A stretch of 64,000 nt of DNA. Source: Gemmatimonadota bacterium. Lineage in GTDB: Bacteria > Gemmatimonadota > Gemmatimonadetes > Gemmatimonadales > GWC2-71-9. The notes under the pieces were generated by a model, which worked only from the letters and a program-made list of their open reading frames with translations, was not told where the DNA came from and did no database searches. The stretch is taken from the NCBI GenBank assembly GCA_009692115.1, contig SHZU01000008.1:62001-126000 (forward strand), in the 5' to 3' direction. A program made the position numbers and the translations under genes. Below are positions 4,313 to 43,507 of the stretch, in pieces (position 1 is the stretch's first letter; the number at the start of each line of letters is the position of its first letter).

Positions 4313-5217
4313 CTGGATCCGAATACTGCGCTCGCCCGGACTGTCGAGTACTTCGGCCGGCGAAGCTCCCGTCATGCCTTCGTCGCTCGCCGGGCGTTTG
4401 GCCGGGCGTTCCCGTCGGACACGGTGCTTCGCGATCAACTGATCGGATCGATCGCCGCCGGCATCCGCCCGGACGGGAAAGCCGCCGACTTTCCCGCCAC
4501 GGCCCTTGCCGTGCTCGATTTGGTCGATCTCGATGCGCCGCCGTCCCGGCTCGACCCCCCCTGACCTGGATCATGGCGCAGGCCAACCGCCCCGGTGGGT
4601 TTGGCGAAGGGTGCACGGCGGCTCGCCATGCCCATCGGGTGTGCGAGCATTTCGTGAGTGGATTCTTCAGTCCCGCCCCGCCGTCCGAGCGGGCCGCCCC
4701 CGCGTCGATGCCTAACGGCAAGGTGTACCAGGTTGAGTCACAAGCCCGGTTTGCGGTCAGTGGCTTGGCCTTGACCGCCGTGCTTCGGGGTGGGCGGGCG
4801 CACGAACCGGCCGCCCAGCGCCACCTCGACAGCTTCTCGAACCTCCAGCTTGAATGGGATACCTAGGGCGAGTTCTTGGTGCCTGATCTGGCCTTCAACG
4901 CGCTGGCGGCCCTGGCGGCGGCTCCGGAGCGATGGCGCCCGACCCTTGAGTCTATGGTGCGGTTAGTTGGGAATCAGCAACTCCGGGACGGGACCTGGCC
5001 CAAGGCCGATTTCTTCAACGCCCTCGACGGGCTCTGCCGGGTCGATCATCTCTTGGTCGGACCGATCCTCGATCAAGCCCTGCCCGGATTGTTGCAGCGC
5101 CAACGGGACGACGGATCGTTCGGCAACGTGGCGGCCGATGAGCGGTCCTTGATCGGGCTCCGGGTGTTGGAACGGGTGGTCAACCCCCCGGCCGCACCAG
5201 CCAAAACACTCCCGTAG
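4313..5217 (+). pseudogene. Decayed prenyltransferase/squalene-cyclase-repeat-like gene
   Basis: Three coding-like stretches follow one another. 4313-4564 (DPNTALARTVEYFGRR and onward) ends at a TGA just after a run of seven C at 4555-4561. The frame then shifts and continues from 4561 to an in-frame TAG at 4864-4866. The same frame resumes to 5217. The last part carries repeats such as LLQRQRDDGSFGN and NQQLRDGTWPK, which resemble the QxxDGSW repeats of the alpha/alpha-barrel prenyltransferase and squalene-cyclase superfamily. No convincing start codon or ribosome site is seen; the first stretch runs directly out of the histone-like gene's frame. One frameshift and one nonsense codon make it a pseudogene unless both are assembly errors. 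Its end overlaps the convergent transporter gene. Confidence 0.6.
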
Positions 5218-5881
5218 CGACCGACCCGAGTGCGATACCCGACGCGATCCGTCGTCCCCATTGCACCGATTGACCGGTGGCCTTCGTGATCGCCACGGCG
5301 AGCATCAACGCGAAGCTCGCCATCCCGACCATCACCCCGGCACAGAAAGCGATCAGGTAGGCCGCCCCAACCCGCCAGTCGTTCATCAGGGTGACGGGAA
5401 TCAGAGCCATCGCGCCGCTGGTGCCCGCGAGTCCATGGAGAAGGCCCACGGCGGTGACGCCCCGGGGGCGATGTTGGTGGGGTCCCGGTGCCGGTCGGTC
5501 GTGGTGGTGCTCGTGCGGCGGCGGCCCGTCCCGGTGGAGGTGAATATGGGCGTGGTCGCCGTGGGATCCGGGTTGATGTTCGTGTAAGTTTCGGCGGCTC
5601 CAAAGCGCCCAGCCGCCGATCCCGATCAGCATCACGCCGACGAGGCGCTCGGCCCAATGATCGAAGGCCGCGGGGACCTTGAGCCCGGACCCGAGCAGCA
5701 CCAGGCCGACGGCCAACACCGCGATCGAATGGCCGATGCCCCACCGGAGTCCGAACCGGACCGCCAGCGGCCACGACGGCCGGCCGCTGACGAAAGTGGA
5801 AACCGCCATGGCGTGATCCGCGTCGACCGCGTGGGCCAGCCCCAGCACGAAGGCCGTAGCAATCGGAAGGAGATCTACCAT
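5180..5881 (-). CDS. Nickel/cobalt transporter-like membrane protein (NiCoT/NicO/UreH relatives)
   Basis: 233 residues, about six membrane segments. The first contains HAVDADH at residues 17-23, which fits the HX4DH metal-recognition signature of nickel/cobalt permeases. A second transmembrane block has RWGIGHS, also typical of the family. A histidine-rich loop at roughly residues 99-142 (clusters such as HEHHHD and HAHIHLH) separates the two halves and probably sequesters metal. The likely role is uptake or export of Ni2+ or Co2+ across the inner membrane. Its ATG shares two bases with the divergent selD ATG. No ribosome site is visible on its own strand, so its start is less certain than that of selD. 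Confidence 0.75.
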   Translation of the reverse strand: MVDLLPIATAFVLGLAHAVDADHAMAVSTFVSGRPSWPLAVRFGLRWGIGHSIAVLAVGLVLLGSGLKVPAAFDHWAERLVGVMLIGIGGWALWSRRNLHEHQPGSHGDHAHIHLHRDGPPPHEHHHDRPAPGPHQHRPRGVTAVGLLHGLAGTSGAMALIPVTLMNDWRVGAAYLIAFCAGVMVGMASFALMLAVAITKATGQSVQWGRRIASGIALGSVATGVFWLVRPGG

Positions 5882-6950
5882 GAGTGATGCATCACGCGAT
5901 CAGCGCCCGAGGATCCGACTCACGTCGTTATCGCACGGCGCGGGTTGAGCCAGTAAACTCGGACCGTCCGAGTTGGCGCAGGTGCTGCGCCACGTTCCCG
6001 GGATCACCGATCCCAACGTATTGGTCGACGCCGCCTCCAAGGACGACGCCGCGGTCTATCGCATTGCCGATGATCGGGCTCTCGTGGTGACGGTCGATTT
6101 CTTCCCGCCCATCGTCGACAATCCGGCCACCTGGGGCGCCATTGCCGCCGCCAACGCCTTGAGCGACATCTACGCGATGGGGGCCACCCCGATTTTCGCC
6201 CTCAATCTAGTGGGATGGCCCCGAGACATCGTGCCCTTCAGCATGTTGGGCGAGGTCCTGGACGGCGCTGCCCGGATCGCCAAGCAGGCCGGCTGCCTGA
6301 TTCTCGGCGGGCACTCGATCGATGATCCCGAGCCCAAGTTCGGGATGGTCGTCGTCGGCGACGTCCACCCCGACCGGATGCTGACCAACGCCGGCGCCCG
6401 GCCCGGCGATCTGATCGTCCTCACCAAGCCCCTTGGCACCGGCATTCTCACCACCGCGCTCAAACGCGGCATCATCGAGGAATCAGAACTTGCCGAAGCC
6501 ATCGGAGTCATGACCACCCTGAACGACAGCGCGGCCAAAGCGGCCGTGGCCCATGGCGCCACCGCCGCCACCGACGTCACCGGCTTTGGACTGCTGGGCC
6601 ATCTCCGGAATATCCTCGGAGCCAGTCAGGTCGGCGCTCAACTGGACGTGGCTCGGCTTCCGCTTTTGGCCGGGGCTGTCGAACTGGCCGCTCAGGGCGC
6701 GGTGCCCGGGGGCACCCGTCGGAACCTCGAGACCGTCGCGGTCGAGTGGGGCGACGACGTGTCCCCGATGGAACAGCTCCTCATGGCCGACGCCCAAACG
6801 TCGGGAGGTCTCCTAATCACGATTCCCGAGGACCGGATTCGAGGGCTGATAGAGGCACTCCGGGCCGCTCGGACCCCGACCCACCGGGTCATCGGGCATA
6901 TCACCGCCCGGTCCGGAGTCATCAAGGTGGGCAGGGGCAGCGGTCTGTAG
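5880..6950 (+). CDS. selD: Selenide, water dikinase with an in-frame TGA (selenocysteine) at the catalytic position
   Basis: SelD makes selenophosphate from selenide and ATP for selenocysteine and selenouridine synthesis. I place the start at ATG 5880, seven bases after a perfect AAGGAG (5867-5872), giving 356 residues including one TGA at codon 23 (5946-5948). Across it the protein reads LTSLSHGAG-U-ASKLGP, matching the E. coli SelD segment HGAG-C-GCK, so TGA stands exactly at the catalytic Cys17 position and Lys26 matches the essential Lys20. The AIRS fold follows: DDAAVY, VTVDFFPPIVD, GGHSIDDPEPKFG, TDVTGFGLLGH. An annotation that reads TGA as stop would begin at the TTG at 5973 and lose the active site. 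A hairpin just after the TGA supports recoding. Selenocysteine-type SelD is known in other bacteria. Confidence 0.93.
5949..5977 (+). promoter_or_regulatory. Candidate bacterial SECIS hairpin in selD
   Basis: Immediately after the TGA at 5946-5948, AACTCGGA (5956-5963) pairs perfectly with TCCGAGTT (5967-5974) around CCG, and the flanking GCC/GGC (5949-5951/5975-5977) extend it past a four-base bulge. If the closing A-U opens, the loop reads ACCGU and includes G-U, as expected for SelB-bound elements. The apical loop lies about 15-20 bases after the TGA, in the range known for bacterial SECIS elements. Confidence 0.72.
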
Positions 6951-43389: not shown

Positions 43390-43431
43390 AAAAAATCCCG
43401 AGGCTAAAACGGCCCCGGGCGACGTTTTAGC
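43390..43431 (-). promoter_or_regulatory. Candidate leader attenuator/riboswitch expression platform of the HMT-MTHFR gene
   Basis: On the minus strand GCTAAAACG and CGTTTTAGC (43423-43431 and 43403-43411) pair perfectly around TCGCCCGGGGC. The loop's CCCGGGGC can instead pair with GCCTCGGG (43397-43404) to make an eight-base stem followed by A and six T (43390-43395): an intrinsic terminator. The two structures exclude each other, the logic of a transcription attenuator, 22 bases before the start codon. The same TCGCCCGGGGC and T-run occur before metH. Confidence 0.65.
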
Positions 43432-43507
43432 GTTTGTTTAACGTGGCCGCAATCAGCGCAAATCACCACGAACCGCTATGCAACCAAGCTAATCCGCAGC
43501 CGCGGGG

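Follow-up and report, generated by a model that had tools for sequence, protein, structure and literature searches.

Selenophosphate synthetases that are themselves selenoproteins (Sec-SelD/SPS2) are described from bacteria, archaea, and eukaryotes (PMC4561486; PMC13188914), and they make up 19% of the SelD genes in one reference set, with selenocysteine (Sec) always at the same position (PMC4561486). The window analyzed here, a 64,000-nucleotide stretch of DNA from a Gemmatimonadota bacterium, carries a selD gene that shares with these systems the enzyme, the Sec position, the accompanying set of selA, selB, and selC, and a hairpin following the UGA, but differs from them in its UASK motif and in having two consecutive hairpins after the UGA. 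Escherichia coli SelD (PDB 3u0o) belongs to the same family and has the same catalytic layout, but it uses Cys and needs no recoding, whereas the window gene has a Sec codon. As Sec-SelD has long been known and is widespread, the window gene is ordinary in kind and not a new system. The literature that we searched neither discusses selenoproteins of Gemmatimonadota nor names the phylum; genome-scale surveys very probably included it, so we claim no priority. The less expected part of our results is comparative, namely, frequent switching between Sec and Cys and a different hairpin in a sister family, f2.

The selD gene (selenide water dikinase, or selenophosphate synthetase) occupies positions 5880 to 6950 of the forward strand and, with the TGA read through, would encode 356 amino acids with Sec as residue 23. 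Consistent with the original prediction, the ATG at 5880, preceded at a distance of 7 nt by a perfect AAGGAG ribosome-binding site (5867 to 5872, forward strand), opens a frame that closes at the TAG at 6948 to 6950 and is broken only by the TGA at 5946 to 5948, codon 23. The read-through protein scores 385 bits over residues 13 to 318 against the SelD equivalog model NCBIfam TIGR00476, whose cutoff is 125 bits, and it matches both Pfam AIRS and AIRS_C. In the alignment with E. coli SelD (E=2e-75), residue 23 falls on Cys17 and Lys26 on Lys20, placing both the catalytic Cys/Sec position and the catalytic Lys in the N-terminal loop. The predicted correspondence of these two residues therefore stands, with a small difference from the E. 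coli motif quoted in the prediction, HGAG-C-GCK: the protein here reads HGAG-U-A-S-K, with Ala24 and Ser25 in place of E. coli Gly18 and Cys19. Ser25 stands where most relatives have a second Cys (UACK), making the motif slightly atypical, and UASK is also found in other Sec-type relatives. With genetic code table 11, a plain open reading frame (ORF) finder opens the gene at the TTG at 5973 and lists an ORF of 325 amino acids, as had been foreseen; ordinary ORF calling thus removes the active site from SelD. The further claim that standard gene calling misses this gene is right for the plain ORF finder but not for selenoprotein-aware tools, which know the gene class (PMC4561486, PMC12013277).

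The SelD query matched 90 of the 101 genomes searched; of the 11 that gave no SelD match, 10 also yielded no SelA. Most same-family matches have one TGA, which in every case read stands at the same codon, and the remainder have TGC; across relatives, TGC and TGT are the only other codons seen at the Sec position. The in-frame UGA of the window gene thus lies where homologues have either Cys or UGA. This TGA also occurs in SelD genes of further phyla, including Chloroflexota and Actinomycetota. When the Sec/Cys residue is masked, a tree of 77 SelD proteins requires 10 Sec/Cys changes, and well-supported branches force at least 6 of these; exchange between the two residues is frequent in the SelD of this order. 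Cys-SelD genomes, among them G006, G018, G038, G047, and G048, retain SelA, and the Sec trait thus seems to outlast the turn of SelD to Cys. We also considered Sec coded by UAG in the relatives G006 and G007 and rejected it, since the TAG is the terminal stop and both genes have TGC at the Sec position.

A published model of the bacterial SECIS (bSECIS) calls for a G and then a U in the loop next to a G-C pair (N1-G-U-N-N2), with the loop 16 to 37 nt after the UGA and an energy threshold of -7.5 kcal/mol (PMC13188914). The distal of the two hairpins, GGCGCAG-GUG-CUGCGCC at 5975 to 5991 of the forward strand, agrees with this model in its 7-bp stem and loop pattern, and its loop distance of about 32 nt and energy of -11.3 kcal/mol are both within the limits. 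The proximal hairpin (5956 to 5974, forward strand; stem AACTCGGA / TCCGAGTT), recognized from its fold and pair counts, lacks in its apical loop the G expected early in a bacterial SECIS loop, and the SelD family of the window departs from the model in having this extra covarying hairpin between the UGA and the SECIS. Among HGAG-type relatives, at least six of the seven distal pairs are present in all 34 distinct Sec sequences and in none of the 10 Cys sequences, while the proximal hairpin gives no such separation. These counts include kin sequences; on the tree, all three independent pairs on well-supported branches agree in direction, a number with which a sign test alone cannot reach 0.05. 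A Gln codon, CAG, lies in the distal stem and is kept in 33 of 34 Sec versions, whereas 6 of 10 Cys versions have a Glu codon instead, so this amino acid seems to be maintained by constraint on the RNA. Covariation of both helices among 32 Sec sequences exceeds nearly all of 500 shuffles and every slid register. When the window gene was recoded synonymously, none of 2,000 trials reached the energy of the two hairpins together, and 0.3% reached that of the distal hairpin. Taken with the fold and the published model, the Sec/Cys contrast, the recoding, and the covariation point to the distal hairpin as the likely SECIS bound by SelB.

Family f2 differs from the window's family in the position that it seems to use. 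In all seven of its Sec sequences (loci L142 to L148), a proximal GGUC/GACC stem has 4 of 4 pairs, whereas the six Cys sequences (within L133 to L139) keep two to three, and the distal hairpin is intact in neither group. The geometry of the f2 proximal stem fits the bSECIS model, but the stem alone is weaker than the -7.5 kcal/mol limit in six of the seven sequences. We tentatively suggest, without holding it to be the likelier case, that the selD recoding signal has moved within the order, lying at a distal site about 32 nt from the UGA in one family and at the proximal GGUC-CGGGU-GACC in f2, with the interposed covarying hairpin perhaps acting as a spacer or pausing element, against a background of frequent Sec/Cys switching. 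Such switches in a single order, tied to a hairpin that is kept or lost, offer a natural data set for the gain, movement, and loss of the bacterial SECIS.

The host genome (3.12 Mb, 97% complete, 23 contigs) contains the machinery that a selenoprotein needs: one tRNA-Sec gene (selC) with anticodon TCA at 67.3 bits (cutoff, 47), SelB at 303.5 bits (cutoff, 242), and SelA at 525.5 bits (cutoff, 268), the latter two confirmed on the translated genes. Contig C2 carries selA and selB, contig C3 carries selC, and selD lies on contig C8. In the stretches L150:5714-7629 and L151:5807-8403, a heptose-phosphate-phosphatase-like gene directly adjoins selA, and the end of a recO-like gene overlaps with selB. 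The absence of selA, selB, and selC had been named as grounds for giving up the prediction, and all three are present; together with two further TGA-containing genes, they support its claim that the organism makes and uses Sec. Selenouridine synthesis, in which SelD would feed YbbB/MnmH, was considered as a purpose of SelD and rejected, since a search for ybbB/selU (TIGR03167) gave no match in this 97% complete genome, while the same search placed one control genome above the cutoff. Of the two known uses of selenophosphate that the search covered, Sec and selenouridine synthesis, only the former was therefore identified here.

These lines of evidence make it nearly certain that the selenophosphate synthetase encoded by selD is a selenoprotein in its own right, with the UGA at codon 23 read as Sec. 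A sequencing or assembly error hiding a true TGC or TGT, and hence a Cys-SelD, would have precedent in the Cys versions common in close families, but the original prediction's own caution about such a miscall is countered by conservation of the TGA at the same codon in relatives, found independently in three other same-genus genomes (L020, L021, and L022). Moreover, the distal hairpin, kept by Sec versions only, is intact here and the Sec machinery is present, so that we give an error a very slim chance. Equally improbable is that the TGA is a real stop, making selD a decaying pseudogene or, by restart at the TTG at 5973, the source of a truncated enzyme. The ORF that the plain finder opens at that TTG would suit a restart, but the truncated form would be without the catalytic residue and Lys26. 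Against decay or termination, the 356 codons contain one stop only, dozens of genomes share this single TGA in the same position, residues 5' of it are conserved in relatives, and a strong ribosome-binding site precedes the ATG at 5880. A conserved TGA followed by a hairpin that is intact in Sec versions but not in Cys versions makes a pseudogene, a sequencing error, and a plain stop all very unlikely.

General reassignment of TGA in the host genome, for example to Trp, with a residue other than Sec at codon 23, is less probable still. We found no point in its favor, and it is opposed by the presence of selA, selB, and a tRNA-Sec with a TCA anticodon, by normal table 11 frames of other genes in the stretches read, and by the location of TGA at the Cys/Sec sites of three unrelated proteins and not at Trp sites. 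Of the explanations considered, Sec insertion at codon 23 alone accounts for all of this sequence evidence.

If codon 23 is read as Sec, ribosomes would start at the ATG at 5880 and, upon reaching the UGA at 5946, would not terminate but insert Sec, delivered by a complex of SelB, GTP, and Sec-tRNA(Sec) presumably held by the distal hairpin at 5975 to 5991, which SelB would choose over the proximal one. Translation would then run on to the TAG at 6948. In the enzyme, Sec23, in place of E. coli Cys17, probably works with Lys26 to convert selenide and ATP to selenophosphate, which SelA would use to make Sec-tRNA(Sec). The original prediction also proposed a feedback of selenium supply on the synthesis of SelD, which is plausible.

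As that prediction had recommended, we looked for further selenoprotein genes; the listing of TGA genes covers part of the selenoproteome and includes two more with TGA at a Sec site. One encodes a formate dehydrogenase alpha subunit (L169, G000:C10:145052-146326, reverse strand) with the TGA in CNRT-U-HAPSVVGL, scoring 674 bits against TIGR01591 (cutoff, 666), and a hairpin with a GGUC-type loop follows the TGA. This gene seems to lack the N-terminal Fe-S domain. The other encodes a peroxiredoxin (L174/L178, G000:C2:43465-44034, forward strand) with TGA in a TxxU motif (TGG-U), the motif known for Sec-containing peroxiredoxins, followed by a GCGUACCGUGAUCAGUACGC-type hairpin. Among the 52 genomes that match this gene, 43 have the TGA, and the hairpin is near-invariant across the loci read. 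In G002, a genome of the same genus that lacks SelD and SelA, the gene has TGC and a broken hairpin. These two genes indicate, from sequence comparison, use of Sec in other parts of the proteome. A working Sec system is thus indicated for the little-cultured phylum Gemmatimonadota, with SelD, formate dehydrogenase, and peroxiredoxin as likely selenoproteins.

Divergent from selD, a NicO-type nickel/cobalt transporter gene (5180 to 5881, reverse strand) matches PF03824 at 27.9 bits (cutoff, 27.7), and its ATG overlaps that of selD by 2 bp (CATG), so there is no room for a promoter between the two genes. NicO was rejected as a conserved partner of selD, as it was not found upstream of selD in other loci, and, as far as shown, it lies outside the Sec system. 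A generic scan for further TGA codons close to a hairpin produced 20 matches in the window, which resemble chance; as the selD TGA did not pass its composition filter either, the scan is uninformative. Elsewhere in the window, a SAM-alpha riboswitch (43404 to 43479, reverse strand) matches Rfam RF00521 at 43.5 bits; the family is named for alphaproteobacteria, and the host of the window belongs to Gemmatimonadota.
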